Assembly: GCA_016125215.1 (NCBI GenBank)
Contig: WGMF01000005.1
Coordinates: forward strand, 62,001-126,000
Source: Phycisphaera sp.
Lineage (GTDB): Bacteria; Planctomycetota; Phycisphaerae; Phycisphaerales; Phycisphaeraceae
DNA length: 64,000 nt
Direction: 5' to 3'
In this document: one piece after another, positions 3,092 to 64,000 of the stretch
Layout of the letters: each line of letters starts with the position of its first letter
Position numbering within the stretch: the stretch's first letter is position 1
The notes under the pieces: generated by a model
Seen by the model: only the letters and a program-made list of their open reading frames with translations
The model's database searches: none
Told to the model about the DNA's origin: nothing
Position numbers and translations under genes: made by a program

Positions 3092-3263
3092 TTAGCCGCA
3101 GATGAACGCAGATGGACGCAGATAAAGGCAAGAAAAATAATTGGAAAACTCGATACAGGGAATTGACATGATCAGATTCTTTTGTATTAGATCCTGTTGA
3201 TCCTGGACATCCTGTGATACTGTCCAAGCCCATCTGCGTTTATCCGCGTTCATCTGCGGCTAA
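3092..3263. repeat. Nested intergenic palindrome, GCAGATG arms with GATCCTG core
   Basis: The left arm (3092-3126) and right arm (3229-3263) are reverse complements at 29 of 35 positions. Each arm is a threefold iteration of a 10-bp word close to GCAGATGAAC. Inside the palindrome, 3190-3218 iterates a different 9-bp word (GATCCTGTT, GATCCTGGA, CATCCTGTG). A degenerate complement of that lies near 3153-3177. The element fills almost the whole gap between moxR and the DUF58 gene. No ORF of note lies inside. Confidence 0.85.
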
Positions 3264-6913: not shown

Positions 6914-7163
6914 ACCCAGAGACCCCGTGGCACGGAGGAAGACACTGATCCGCAGATGACGCAGATAATTCCTGTCGAATAGCTACGGGCTGATCCCTGA
7001 CGGGCTTCAACCCCATGACCCCAGATTAAACATACCGGCAATCCCGTCACCAAACCCATCGGTTTCCGATCACTCGAAACACGATTCGTTTTTCTTTTAT
7101 CTGTGTCATCTGCGGATGGTTTTCTGCCCTGTTTGCGTTCCGCGCCTCCGTGTCTCTCGGGTT
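6914..7163. repeat. Nested intergenic palindrome, GCAGATGAC core with CACGGAGG outer arms
   Basis: The inner arms at 6947-6968 and 7097-7118 are reverse complements at 20 of 22 positions, built on two copies of GCAGATGAC. Outside them is a second, different pair: AACCC...GAGAC...CACGGAGG at 6914-6938 against its complement at 7140-7163. The right outer arm runs into the stop codon of the anti-sigma gene at 7162-7164. The centre (6970-7095) holds nothing I recognise. The whole gap between the aquaporin gene and the anti-sigma gene is filled by this structure. Confidence 0.75.
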
Positions 7164-17965: not shown

Positions 17966-18128
17966 AATTAGCCGCAGATGAACGCAGATGGACGCTGATA
18001 AAGACATGGATACAGGAGAAGACCGGTTTACAACAAGCCTGTTGACGCTACCTCAATCCATCCGCCATTCGCCATCCCACATCCGCCATCTAAATTCATC
18101 TGCGTCCATCTGCGTCCATCTGCGGCTA
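17966..18128. repeat. Intergenic palindrome, GCAGATGGAC arms
   Basis: The left arm (17969-18005) and right arm (18092-18128) are reverse complements at about 30 of 33 aligned positions, again threefold iterations of a GCAGATGGAC-like 10-bp word. The left arm touches a possible upstream start of rsmA; the right arm ends 32 bp before the mutL ATG. Within it, 18058-18090 iterates a further word (ATCCGCCATTCGCCAT), without an obvious complementary partner. The promoters of both divergent genes must lie in or beside this element. Confidence 0.85.
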
Positions 18129-37918: not shown

Positions 37919-38121
37919 GGGTTCACGCTGGGGACGCGGGGTGCGCAGGGGAGTGGTTCACGCCAAGACGCCAAGGACGCCAAGTGTAAAACCATTGATG
38001 ATTGATGAACGATGACCTCAAGCACCTCGTTGGCAGAAAAGCTCTTGGCGCTCTTGGCGGGCTTGGCGAGAAATTCCCGCCCCGGTTTTCCCCGCGCTCT
38101 CCACGGACCCCGCGTGAACCC
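37919..38121. repeat. Nested intergenic palindrome, GCCAAG arms
   Basis: The inner arms at 37955-37984 and 38042-38073 each carry three GCCAAG copies with 8-9 bp spacing and are reverse complements of each other. Outside lies a second pair, GGGTTCACGC with a G-rich tail at 37919-37942 against its complement at 38096-38121. The centre (37985-38041) has GATGATTGATGAACGATG. The 324-bp gap between ruvC and the topoisomerase A gene holds no ORF of note and must also contain both promoters. Confidence 0.8.
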
Positions 38122-60455: not shown

Positions 60456-61349
60456 ATGTCGGTCGGCCAACCCAAACACGACGGGCCTTGGACCACGCGC
60501 AGGTTGCTCGCGTGGACGACGGAGTATTTTGAACGCCGGGGCATCGACAGCCCGCGCCTCAGCGCCGAGATGCTCTTGGCGCACGTCTTGAGCGTGGGTC
60601 GGCTCAAGCTCTACACCGACCCGGATCGCCCCGCGACCGAGTTGGAACGGGCGGCCTTCCGCGACCTTGTTGAGCGGGCTGTCAACCACGAGCCTGTCGA
60701 TTACCTCGTCGGGCGCTGCCCGTTTTTCTCGATGATGCTGCGCGTGGACAAACGTGTGCTCATCCCACGCCCGAGCACGGAGACGCTTGTCGAGCACGTG
60801 ATTCAATACGCGCGGAGGACGCCGGGCTTTGCTTCGCCCTTGGTCGCGGACGTGTGTACCGGATCGGGCGCGATCGCGGTGGCGCTGGCCAAGAACATCC
60901 CCGACGCGCGCGTGATTGCCACGGACATCTCAACCGATGCGCTTGAGGTGGCGAAGATCAACGCACAGGAACAGGGCGTCTCCGAAAGGATCGACTTGCG
61001 GGGGGGCGACCTGCTCGGGCCACTGGGTCAGCAGCGGGTGAACTTGCTCGTGAGCAACCCGCCCTACATCAGCGACCGGGAATGGGAAGCGGTCGAGCCG
61101 AATGTCAAGGACTACGAGCCCACGGGGGCCTTGCGGGGCGGCGCGGACGGGTTGGATTTGCTGCGTGTGCTGATCCGTGACGGACACAAACACCTTGTTA
61201 GCCCGGGGCAACTGGTGCTCGAGTTCGCCGCTTCGCAGCGCGACGCGGTGGCGGCGCTGGCCGAGGAAGCGGGCTATCTGAACGTGCGCGTCTTGGCGGA
61301 TCACGAACGACTGCCGCGGGTGCTCGTGGCGGATGCGCCGGAGGGTTGA
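60456..61349 (+). CDS. prmC: Release factor glutamine methyltransferase
   Basis: The 297-residue protein has the helical N-terminal domain (DSPRLSAEMLLAHVL, VDYLVGRCPFF), IPRPSTETLVEHV, the SAM motif VADVCTGSGAIAVALAKN, and the catalytic VSNPPYISDREW. PrmC methylates the GGQ glutamine of RF1 and RF2. The ATG at 60456 is a normal start. No prfA gene is adjacent, unlike in many bacteria. Its stop codon abuts the first unit of a palindromic repeat. Confidence 0.94.
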   Translation: MSVGQPKHDGPWTTRRLLAWTTEYFERRGIDSPRLSAEMLLAHVLSVGRLKLYTDPDRPATELERAAFRDLVERAVNHEPVDYLVGRCPFFSMMLRVDKRVLIPRPSTETLVEHVIQYARRTPGFASPLVADVCTGSGAIAVALAKNIPDARVIATDISTDALEVAKINAQEQGVSERIDLRGGDLLGPLGQQRVNLLVSNPPYISDREWEAVEPNVKDYEPTGALRGGADGLDLLRVLIRDGHKHLVSPGQLVLEFAASQRDAVAALAEEAGYLNVRVLADHERLPRVLVADAPEG

Positions 61350-61559
61350 ACACAGAGGTCACAGAGGACACAGAGAGAAGACAGAGAAAACCATCCGCAG
61401 ATGACGCAGATTTTCAAGGCAGATCAATGCAAGATGGGGGTGGGGAACTTTTGGGTGACCACGTGTTGCCTGGCTGATCCAGTGGTTTGGATCCGCGTCA
61501 TCTGCGGATCGTTTTGGCTTGTCTCTTCTCTGCGTCTTTTGCGTTCTCCACGGTGAGAT
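61349..61559. repeat. Nested intergenic palindrome, CACAGAGG and GCAGATGAC arms
   Basis: The left side (61350-61411) iterates a 9-bp CACAGAGGN word three times, continues AGAAGACAGAGAAAACC, and then has ATCCGCAGATGACGCAGAT. The right side (61491-61555) is the reverse order. Its inner arm matches the left inner arm at 18 of 19 positions, and its outer arm (CTTCTCTGCGTC...GCGTTCTCC) is a degenerate complement. The left end overlaps the prmC stop codon. It fills the gap between prmC and the isomerase gene. Confidence 0.8.
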
Positions 61560-61622
61560 GTGCTATGCTTTGCCCACGTGGGCGGGAGGATGGTTCACCC
61601 AGAGACCGGGAAAGGATTCACC

Positions 61623-62408
61623 ATGACCAGTCAGATCGGCGCGCAGCTTTACACCATCCGTGACTTCATCAAGACCCCCGAGGACATTGCCAAAAGCCTG
61701 GCTCGCGTCCGCAAGATCGGGTACGAGGTCGTGCAGGTCAGCGCGATGGGCAAGATCGATGACCACGAGTTGGCCAAGATCCTCAAGAACGAGGGCCTGA
61801 CCGCCGGCCCGACGCACACAGGGCTGGACATGATGAAGGACACGCAGAGGTGCGTGGACTACCACAAAGCCATCGGATCAACCCACACCGCGATCGGCGG
61901 GTTCGGGTGGAAAGAGGGCACGGGCGTCGAGGAATGGGAAAAGTTCGCTGAGGAATACTCGGCCGTCGGCAAGACCCTCGCGCAGCACGGCATCCACATC
62001 GGCTACCACAACCACAGCCACGAGTGGGCGCCGTTTCCCGCGGGCAGCGCATACAAGAATCCCTACGAACTGCTGATGAAAAAACTCGACCCCTGCGTCT
62101 GGATGGAGGTCGACACCTACTGGGTCGCCCACGCCGGCGGCGACCCCGCGCAATACCTCGAAGACCTCGGCGCGATGCCCGGCAATCGCCTGCCCGCCAT
62201 CCACGTCAAGGACATGGCCATCACCCCCAAACGCGAACAGAAGATGTGCGAGGTCGGCTCGGGCAACCTCAACTGGGAACGCATCCTCGACGTCGCCCGC
62301 AAGGCCCACGTCAAGTGGTACCTCGTCGAACGCGACCACGGCGAACTCGACCCCTTCGACAGCCTCAAGATCAGCTTCGAGTTCCTGCGTTCACAGGGCT
62401 TGAAGTGA
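61623..62408 (+). CDS. Xylose-isomerase-like TIM-barrel sugar phosphate isomerase/epimerase
   Basis: The protein (261 residues from the ATG at 61623, preceded by GGAAAGGA) is an AP-endonuclease-2-type TIM barrel: IGAQLYTIRDFIKTPED, GYEVVQVSAMG, HIGYHNHSHEW, CVWMEVDTYWVAHAGGDP, and LPAIHVKDMA. The His, Glu and Asp residues at the barrel mouth suggest metal-dependent isomerisation, as in IolE- and IolI-like proteins. The substrate is unknown. Palindromic repeats lie on both sides. Frames upstream of 61623 lack conserved sequence. Confidence 0.88.
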   Translation: MTSQIGAQLYTIRDFIKTPEDIAKSLARVRKIGYEVVQVSAMGKIDDHELAKILKNEGLTAGPTHTGLDMMKDTQRCVDYHKAIGSTHTAIGGFGWKEGTGVEEWEKFAEEYSAVGKTLAQHGIHIGYHNHSHEWAPFPAGSAYKNPYELLMKKLDPCVWMEVDTYWVAHAGGDPAQYLEDLGAMPGNRLPAIHVKDMAITPKREQKMCEVGSGNLNWERILDVARKAHVKWYLVERDHGELDPFDSLKISFEFLRSQGLK

Positions 62409-62412
62409 GCAG

Positions 62413-62610
62413 TCAACCGCCAAGACGCCAAGGTCGCCAAGTCCGATCCAAGAATATTGACGGGATAACAAGATGGACCGGATCAACGGGATCAGCCGCA
62501 CTTGTCGGGTTGAACTGCATCACGGCTCTCTGGATTGATTCCTGTTCATCCTGCTGATCCTGTTATCGTGTCAAATCTCTCCTTGGCGTCCTTGGCGTCT
62601 TGGCGGTTGA
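62413..62610. repeat. Nested intergenic palindrome, GCCAAG arms with GATCCTG core
   Basis: The outer arms at 62413-62441 and 62582-62610 are reverse complements at 28 of 29 positions and each has three GCCAAG copies. The inner arms begin TTGAC at 62457 and end GTCAA at 62574; they iterate a 9-bp ACAGGATCA-like word (right side TGTTCATCCTGCTGATCCTG, 62543-62562) and pair with mismatches. This is the cleanest example of one word family inside another. It starts 5 bp after the isomerase stop and lies before rpsU. Confidence 0.88.
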
Positions 62611-62687
62611 TCCCGGATTTGCATCCCAACTCGCCTTCTGGCACAATACTCGGCCCGGTTTTTCGGGCAACAGGAGAGTTTTGTCCT

Positions 62688-62939
62688 ATGGCGATCCGAA
62701 TCAAAGCACGCAGTGGCGAGTCCGCGGAGCAGATGCTCCGGAGGTTTAAGAAGCTCTGTGAAAAAGAGGGCCTGACCAAGGACGTCAAACGCCGGGCGTA
62801 CTACGAAAAGCCCAGTGAAAAGCGCCGTCGCGCCTTCCGCAAGACCCTCAAGCGTGCCCAGCAGCAGGCCGACCTGGCCAAGGGCATCCTCCCGCCGCCC
62901 AAACTCAGCAAACGGCCCCCGCTCCGCAAGCCCCGGTAA
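62688..62939 (+). CDS. rpsU: 30S ribosomal protein bS21
   Basis: The 83-residue product has the bS21 pattern: a short beta start (AIRIKARSGESAEQML), RRFKKLCEKEGLTKDVKRRAYYEKPSEKRRR in outline (residues 18-48), then a basic helix. A tail KLSKRPPLRKPR extends it beyond E. coli bS21 (71 residues). The ATG at 62688 follows CAGGAG by 11 nt. A small hairpin, GCCCG/CGGGC (62653-62668), lies in the leader and could take part in regulation. bS21 helps choose the start region of messages. Confidence 0.92.
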   Translation: MAIRIKARSGESAEQMLRRFKKLCEKEGLTKDVKRRAYYEKPSEKRRRAFRKTLKRAQQQADLAKGILPPPKLSKRPPLRKPR

Positions 62940-63191
62940 ATCGCCTCCCGCCGCCGATCGGGTTGAACCCCCGTCGCGGACACCGGGCCGACCCCCCTTT
63001 CACGCCCCTTGAACCCCACACCCAGACTTTCACCCGTCGCCCGGTCTGCCTTCGATCCACAAGGCACATCGCGGTGGTCGGGTGCGCGCCGGGCTTGTGT
63101 GGACGGGAGCGTCAGGTGCGTTGGATAGAAAAACACTCTACACTCTTATCCCCGTAATCCCTGTAAAGCTCTTACATACTGGAGTCCATCT

Positions 63192-64000
63192 ATGAGGTCC
63201 TTCCGCGCCGCTGTCCCTGCCACGTTGGCCACGCTCGCATTTTTCGTCACGCCATTACTGGCTCTTGCCCAGACGCCCGACATCGAGTCGCTGGCCAACC
63301 AGGCCGCGGCCACTCACGCGGCTTACACCCTTCCGCCGGCCTACTGGCTCGCGCCGATCGGGGCCATCGCGGCGCTCATCATGGCGTTCGTCTTTTACCG
63401 TTCGGTCGTCAGCCACTCCGAGGGTGATGAGAACATGATCCGCATCGCCGCCGCCGTGCGCGAGGGGGCCTACGCTTACCTCTCCTCGCAACGCAAGGTC
63501 GTCGCGCTGGTCTTCGTCGTGCTCATGGCGATCCTCGCGCTGATGGGGTTTGTGCTCCACCTGCAGGACGAGCTGACGTTCGTCGGCGTGGGCATCGCGG
63601 GGTTCTTCTCGGGGTTGTGTGGTTTCTTCGGGATGAAGACCGCCACCGCCGCCTCCGCGCGAACGGCCGCCGCCGCCAAGGAATCGCTCAACAAGGGCCT
63701 GACCGTCGCCTTCCGCGCCGGGGCCGTCATGGGCCTGTGTGTCACCGGCTTTGCCACGCTCGACATCTCCGTGTGGTTCTACGTCCTCTCGCAATCGTTC
63801 GGGCAGCACTTCCCGACCCTCGTCGCGCTGACCACCGTCACGCTCTCGTTTGCGATGGGAGCGTCATTGCAAGCCCTCTTTGCCCGTGTGGGCGGCGGCA
63901 TCTACACCAAGGCCGCGGACGTCGGGGCTGACCTCGTCGGTAAAGTCGAAGCCGGCATCCCCGAAGACGACGCACGCAACCCCGCCACCATCGCGGACAA
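63192..64000 (+). CDS. hppA: Membrane-bound proton-translocating pyrophosphatase (partial)
   Basis: The frame begins at the ATG at 63192 and runs off the right edge with 269 codons. A signal-like start (ATLATLAFFVTPLLALAQ) is followed by membrane helices. The family sequence REGAYAYLSSQRKV is present, as is YTKAADVGADLVGKVEAGIP, followed by EDDARNPATIADN, part of the pyrophosphate-binding site. The enzyme couples PPi hydrolysis to H+ or Na+ pumping. The residues that decide K+ dependence and ion choice lie beyond the edge. The 252-bp gap upstream holds nothing I recognise. Confidence 0.95.
   Translation, partial: MRSFRAAVPATLATLAFFVTPLLALAQTPDIESLANQAAATHAAYTLPPAYWLAPIGAIAALIMAFVFYRSVVSHSEGDENMIRIAAAVREGAYAYLSSQRKVVALVFVVLMAILALMGFVLHLQDELTFVGVGIAGFFSGLCGFFGMKTATAASARTAAAAKESLNKGLTVAFRAGAVMGLCVTGFATLDISVWFYVLSQSFGQHFPTLVALTTVTLSFAMGASLQALFARVGGGIYTKAADVGADLVGKVEAGIPEDDARNPATIAD

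Follow-up and report, generated by a model that had tools for sequence, protein, structure and literature searches.

A nested pair of iterated-heptamer palindromes in Phycisphaera and its likely place in a dispersed hairpin repeat family

In a 64,000-nucleotide stretch of DNA from Phycisphaera sp. (the whole stretch is hereinafter the window), the intergenic feature at 62413-62610 is a palindrome enclosing a second palindrome, and we are highly confident that the two form a nested pair belonging to a family of hairpin repeats with arms of iterated heptamers, of which this genome has copies by the dozens to hundreds. The best explanation of the feature, of which we are half convinced, is that it is an ORF-less, non-autonomous pair within this dispersed family, moved by the predicted nuclease GxxExxY that larger copies encode between their arms, and inserting near hairpin tips. 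That the family moves at all we consider probable.

Architecture and recurrence of the nested palindrome

The preliminary description, drawn from these letters alone, had reported a palindrome inside a palindrome, and this is borne out: the outer arms are 29 nt each with 28 complementary positions, the right arm being the reverse complement of the left with one mismatch, and 140 nt lie between them (Table 1). The RNA fold of 62405-62618 reaches -103.6 kcal/mol; dinucleotide-shuffled versions give -66.8 +/- 4.6 (z = -8.05), and none of 200 does as well. The same description had taken both arms for iterations of short words, correctly in kind; its words themselves need replacing. The outer unit is the heptamer CGCCAAG rather than GCCAAG, present three times per arm with spacers of 1 and 2 nt, and the inner one, which is no clean 9-bp word, is the heptamer ACAGGAT with spacers of 1-2 nt, in degenerate form in the window copy (ACGGGAT, ACCGGAT and similar). 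The best alignment of the inner palindrome scores 26 (shuffle mean 12.9, maximum 28 in 2000 shuffles); by itself it is imperfect and barely above chance, and it is secured by recurrence at other loci, ACAGGAT-type palindromes being found nested within other CGCCAAG palindromes of the same genome. An ORF stop at 62408 and an ORF start at 62689 bound the spacer on its two sides, and by eye we take the neighbours to resemble a sugar-phosphate isomerase/epimerase, a bS21-type ribosomal protein and a proton-pumping pyrophosphatase (sequence impressions). An Rfam search of 61000-64000 gave no match, in agreement with the earlier remark that no transposon, CRISPR or known regulatory element of this kind was recognised.

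Table 1. Parts of the nested palindrome (window coordinates)
Feature	Position	Strand	Composition
Outer left arm	62413..62441	+	TCAAC, CGCCAAG (62418-62424), A, CGCCAAG (62426-62432), GT, CGCCAAG (62435-62441)
Inner left arm	62457..62494	+	worn ACAGGAT-type iteration, TTGAC at opening: TTGACGGGATAACAAGATGGACCGGATCAACGGGATCA
Innermost loop	62495..62535	.	41 nt, without ORF; copy of the ORF-less kind
Inner right arm	62536..62574	-	reverse complement = TTGACACGATAACAGGATCAGCAGGATGAACAGGAATCA
Outer right arm	62582..62610	-	CTTGGCG (62582-62588), TC, CTTGGCG (62591-62597), T, CTTGGCG (62599-62605), GTTGA

Five more heptamer palindromes lie in the window, at 3096-3256, 6951-7113, 17972-18123, 37959-38069 and 61350-61543; they are CGCAGAT with ACAGGAT inside, CGCAGAT (twice), CGCCAAG within another inverted repeat, and a CACAGAG-type palindrome around CGCAGAT. 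The ORF at 61560-62408 is flanked on both sides by palindromic elements.

Word pairs were counted across the 4.04-Mb genome, with the reversed pattern as control. At up to 2 mismatches, the CGCCAAG pair CGCCAAGACGCCAAG has 129 sites against 27 in the control, many of them as +/- pairs; the ACAGGAT pair ACAGGATAACAGGAT has 76 against 2, and the CGCAGAT pair CGCAGATGACGCAGAT 339 against 5. The word array of the outer left arm recurs at dozens of loci. Besides CGCCAAG, the word families of this genome are CGCAGAT, ACAGGAT, CGCAGAG and CACAGAG, and some 35-40 paired CGCCAAG palindromes were found among the loci that we read through. Most of these open with AACCGCCAAG and close with CTTGGCGGTT, a minority opening with TTTCACGCCAAG. 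Both arms of a copy bear one word and the words differ among copies; in general an arm repeats one heptamer C-R-C-N-R-A-G/T (or ACAGGAT) about three times, with spacers of 1-3 nt, and often opens with TTAACC or TTCACC. By inspection, the loops are mutually unrelated, nested word palindromes excepted. The preliminary description had staked the reality of the element on its arms recurring with the same nesting, and a CGCCAAG palindrome around an ACAGGAT one does recur at several other loci.

ORFs enclosed by the arms

The window copy has no ORF; a full-length CGCCAAG relative elsewhere in the genome (L029, C30:33272-33739) encloses an ORF of 130 aa that matches PF13366 PDDEXK_3 (E = 2.8e-40) and TIGR04256 "GxxExxY". 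We accordingly collected GxxExxY loci of the phylum by profile scan and aligned, for each, the 200-nt flank upstream of the ORF in inverted orientation with the 200-nt flank downstream of it, scoring the best alignment against a threshold of 28. Of 52 such loci 45 score at least 28, and 39 lie above the 95th percentile of cross-locus pairs. Within the family of the Phycisphaera genome, GxxExxY stands between matching arms at 26 of 29 loci (displaced controls: 0 of 26). A cross-phylum scan of one genome per species gave 54 of the 80 best matches to the query profile, against 2 of 67 controls with windows displaced 500 nt outward; the record names in the 80 include Planctomycetes, Proteobacteria, Bacteroidetes, Chloroflexota, Acidobacteria, Verrucomicrobia, Cyanobacteria, Hydrogenedentota, Spirochaetota, Nitrospinota and archaeal Methanothrix/Methanosarcinales. 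Pooled, about 125 of 161 GxxExxY loci from about ten phyla lie between matching inverted heptamer arms (displaced controls: 2 of 93), an approximate figure in that the sets have a few loci in common and the 80 were chosen as best profile matches. Of 149 other ORFs of 100-200 aa at these loci, 8 are so placed, and of 43 window ORFs of at least 200 aa, none. The arm words at GxxExxY loci include CACAGAG, CGCAGAG, CACGAAG, CACGGAG, CGCAAAG, CACAAAG, CGCAGAT, CACAGAT, CATGAAG, ACAGGAT, CGCCAAG and more, and despite this variation between elements the left and right arms of one element have the identical word. An ORF-bearing copy exists in the Phycisphaera genome for each of the words CGCCAAG, CGCAGAT and CGCAGAG.

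We assign GxxExxY to the PD-(D/E)XK nuclease superfamily from its D...ExK motif, its predicted fold and its PF13366 match. D64, E74, K76, Q88 and Y92 are all invariant in one alignment (A1); in a second (A2), this holds fully for D64, K76 and Q88 and almost so for E74 and Y92. Q88xxxY92, conserved after ExK, may correspond to the QxxxY motif of Cas4/RecB-type nucleases. The AlphaFold2 model (pLDDT 93.7) is nearest to SSO0001 (a moderate match and the best obtained: VIA Z 9.0, rmsd 5.6, Foldseek E 0.028), which we take to be a Cas4 protein, and to archaeal Hjc resolvases (likewise moderate, Z 7.7). These likenesses support the PD-(D/E)XK fold and hint at a structure-specific or end-processing nuclease. 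Rep15 and the Wolbachia Cin factors, which also appeared in the fold-search rows, were not accepted as relatives; PADLOC gave no match for GxxExxY, and a sequence-profile search of solved structures likewise none. In one paper, the pipeline reported a GxxExxY domain at a place to which another tool assigned cas4. For a GxxExxY copy with conserved flanks in G122 and G069, dN is 0.09 and dS 0.57, and the protein is therefore under purifying selection. Only eight plasmid records carry GxxExxY, every one from a different genus, for which reason they were left out of the comparisons for empty sites, and five relatives were found on viral contigs, of which L333 has heptamer arms and L335 a weak inverted repeat. 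The other three (L334, L336 and L337) lie between long AT-rich inverted repeats of another kind (scores 91-108). Two copies seem to be decaying: one in the Phycisphaera genome with an internal TAG (C49:33724-34074) and one in G347 (L427) with, by eye, an in-frame gap across the region of the catalytic D. At one orthologous site, other ORFs, of 144 aa (L084) and 226 aa (L192) and with no convincing Pfam match, occupy the loop or lie beside the remaining arm.

A parallel class of palindromes encloses a different ORF. PF05635 is the four-helix-bundle protein that rRNA intervening sequences encode, but its genes also occur outside rRNA: at 25 of 30 loci taken phylum-wide (L358-L387), against 0 of 26 displaced controls, they are enclosed by inverted arms of iterated words. 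Their arm words are others, mostly of period 7 without spacer (e.g., GGGTTAG, TAGTGGT, TAGTTGT, GTTTCTG). Because PF05635 occupies this parallel set, the loop ORF could be exchangeable cargo. At one site, the four-helix-bundle element lies inside an apparent coding gene (L363 and L359, in G347 and G368); G417 has a different palindrome there (CCCCCTC; L418), and other genera have ordinary coding sequence.

Copies compared between genomes

Among 51 genomes of the family, more than 10 net CGCMRAG sites occur in 18 of the 33 with GxxExxY and in 1 of the 18 without it (Fisher p = 4e-4), and CGCMRAG abundance correlates with GxxExxY (Spearman 0.57), relatedness being ignored in both statistics; all the relatives searched belong to other genera. 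CGCMRAG sites are few in 15 of the 33 GxxExxY genomes, where words other than CGCMRAG were left uncounted, and a few genomes (G101) hold palindromes without a detected GxxExxY. At one orthologous site, whose flanks are about 85% identical, the ACAGGAT arms of G417 enclose the GxxExxY ORF and the similar arms of G347 do not. Three palindromes are common by descent to G030 and G122, which are about 90% identical: their arms agree at 184 of 186 positions, their loops at 145 of 206 and their flanks at 540 of 600, and from these alignments the arms appear to be constrained or homogenised and the loops free to change. Many other orthologous spacers have palindromes of different words in sister species, and a hybrid site (G030 175802) combines CGCCAAG at its left with CGCAGAG at its right. 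Some orthologous spacers lack a palindrome, some sites are empty in a congener, and the distribution among sister genera is patchy. At about 90% identity, spacers in general are almost completely turned over, too far for a clean empty site or target-site duplication; neither was found for the heptamer class, and this is the main weakness of the case for mobility.

Several other repeats were seen in these comparisons. A separate dispersed palindromic repeat, GTCATTCCCGCGCAGGCGGGAATCC, is found dozens of times each in G030 and G122; of its sites at L131:9805-9967 and L131:17878-18018 in G030, the second is nearly clean empty in G122. Both G030 and G069 have a copy of this repeat within a CACAGAG palindrome (L131:8460-8680 compared with L171), its inner loop apparently inverted between the species. 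In genus g31, many elements have an extra outer inverted word, CAAGRCA-TTTTT ... AAAAA-TGYCTTG (L115, L120, L126, L130, G030). A heptamer palindrome at L131:11904-12095, compared with L171 and L172 of G069, sits at a G030/G069 rearrangement breakpoint.

Nesting, probable mobility and comparison with known elements

The concentric nesting of different words noticed in the window proves to be general: in 20 sampled nested pairs from the Phycisphaera genome, the median difference between centres is 3.25 nt and the relative centre offset 0.077 of the possible range, against 0.5 for random placement. CGCCAAG surrounds CGCAGAT in six nested pairs and the reverse holds in one, CACAGAG surrounds CGCAGAT in four and the reverse again holds in one, and locus L025 has four nesting levels (CGCCAAG, ACAGGAT, CACAGAG and CCGCAGAG). 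Many loops hold another word palindrome, and each word occurs alone too. Co-occupancy of spacers in the gap list is mildly over expectation (4 against 2). The preliminary description had offered insertion of one element at the centre of another or growth from the centre; the observations favour the former, one element landing mid-way in another, as the better fit, and outward growth of a single element is the less likely of the two, being hard to reconcile with several nesting orders, some of them reciprocal, and with the finding of every word singly too.

The closest known architecture is that of the rRNA intervening sequences (IVSs), which take the place of small tetraloops in rRNA helices, and from it comes the idea that nesting reflects insertion at hairpin tips, a reading that for us hangs in the balance. 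GxxExxY, with its Cas4/Hjc-like fold, would recognise the hairpin or cruciform formed by the arms and move the element, the ORF-less copies being non-autonomous and served in trans; a copy that enters the hairpin of another at its unpaired tip would then produce concentric nesting as at 62413-62610. We give GxxExxY an even chance of being the mover of the family. For the outermost copies, tip insertion was rejected: their flanks are not complementary past the first few bases, and therefore the element ends near TTAAC/GTTAA and the outermost copies do not sit on present hairpins, so that tip insertion cannot be the sole mode. A wider proposal, which we put forward tentatively and with more doubt than belief, is that of pan-bacterial mobile hairpins recognised not by a fixed sequence but by structure, their interchangeable heptamers, about three in number, forming an inverted array of fixed phasing; a minimal Cas4/Hjc-like loop nuclease would move them, tip insertion would yield Russian-doll nesting, and a parallel S23p class with period-7 words would include the rRNA intervening sequences as one special case.

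Two unrelated ORF families hold the same position in similar palindromes, further unrelated ORFs occur in loops (L084, L192), and the GTCATTCCCGCG repeat also lies within a CACAGAG palindrome, all of which would suit palindromes moved in MITE-like fashion by another transposase or recombinase, the GxxExxY or four-helix-bundle gene being cargo or a parasite that lands safely in the loop. We regard this as unlikely: each ORF family is paired with its own word class, GxxExxY tracks palindrome abundance, no target duplication was seen, and the loops of ORF-less copies are unrelated, whereas MITEs derive from one parent; the unrelated loops also set the heptamer elements apart from ordinary copy-and-paste elements and in this respect count against the preferred explanation as well. 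If the hairpins were instead functional RNA or DNA structures under selection (bidirectional terminators, RNase III substrates or protectors of mRNA ends), with their spread secondary, one would understand the very stable fold, the intergenic position near stop codons, the near-constancy of the arms across species despite divergence of the loops, and the cutting of similarly built rRNA intervening sequences by RNase III. This we think distinctly improbable in view of the patchy presence among sister genera, the sites empty in a congener and the freely variable word at orthologous sites; the nuclease ORF and the concentric nesting are also left unexplained by it.

Very unlikely, in our estimate, is an origin without mobility, by which a heptamer multiplies through slippage within one arm and the opposite arm acquires it by hairpin-templated repair, in a concerted rewriting at a fixed site. 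The different-word palindromes in orthologous spacers of sister species, the match of arm to arm above chance in every copy and the hybrid site of G030 point in its direction; against it stand the presence of the same word at dozens of unlinked loci within one genome, the orthologous spacers without a palindrome and the ORF association, which it does not explain. We dropped in-place word conversion as the preferred reading since the wholesale turnover of spacers makes repeated insertion at least as good an account of the word differences. Chance likeness of short intergenic words, to which the marginal score of the inner palindrome taken alone might lend colour, is negligible given the fold statistic and already refuted by the genome-wide recurrence of the words and of the same nesting.

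The full texts of open-access papers yielded no description of the heptamer hairpin family or of an association between GxxExxY and such arms, and the family is apparently undescribed; in that literature GxxExxY is named in only two papers, in passing, and it is annotated across bacteria without function. The heptamer hairpins could represent mobile DNA of a widespread type. The placement of GxxExxY inside matching heptamer arms suggests a role for it and a substrate to test, and the family offers one possible explanation for the iterated intergenic words of environmental genomes (CGCAGAG, CACGAAG, ACAGGAT, GGGTTAG and others) and connects these words with the intervening sequences of rRNA. 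Should the elements prove mobile, intergenic turnover would have in them a source so far unrecognised.

The 23S rRNA IVS of Coxiella burnetii has a 28-bp stem and an S23p ORF in its loop, and a mobile origin is suspected (PMC4990558). Like the heptamer elements, such IVSs have a long inverted-repeat stem and a single small loop ORF, and they replace an existing hairpin tip, to which concentric nesting suggests something similar here. The heptamer elements differ in being intergenic and mostly ORF-less, with GxxExxY in the loop, CRCNRAK arms and dozens to hundreds of copies per genome; at 62413-62610 we found neither location in a 23S rRNA helix nor an S23p loop ORF. The TAACTGA repeats of Beggiatoaceae are direct-repeat sets, with one inverted set among 170 and no loop ORF described (PMC4679880); they share with the heptamer elements intergenic iterated 7-mers, well over a hundred sets per genome and an unsettled function. 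MITEs are likewise short, terminally inverted and intergenic, with non-coding copies beside longer coding ones, but have a common internal sequence, in contrast to the unrelated loops of the heptamer elements, and a target duplication, of which none was found for the heptamer elements in spacers already largely turned over. REPs are palindromes of 20-40 bp, tagged by GTAG or CGTC, whose transposase is of the tyrosine HUH type (PMC3733652, PMC8266576). The REP/REPIN-RAYT system resembles the heptamer elements in its many dispersed intergenic palindromes, its small companion nuclease gene and its non-autonomous copies, for which help in trans is presumed. In place of a REP tag, the window arms open with TCAACCGCCAAG and consist of iterated heptamers, and the heptamer elements differ further from REP/REPIN in having arms of about 25-30 nt, loops of 40 to 500 nt and a PD-(D/E)XK companion encoded within the loop.
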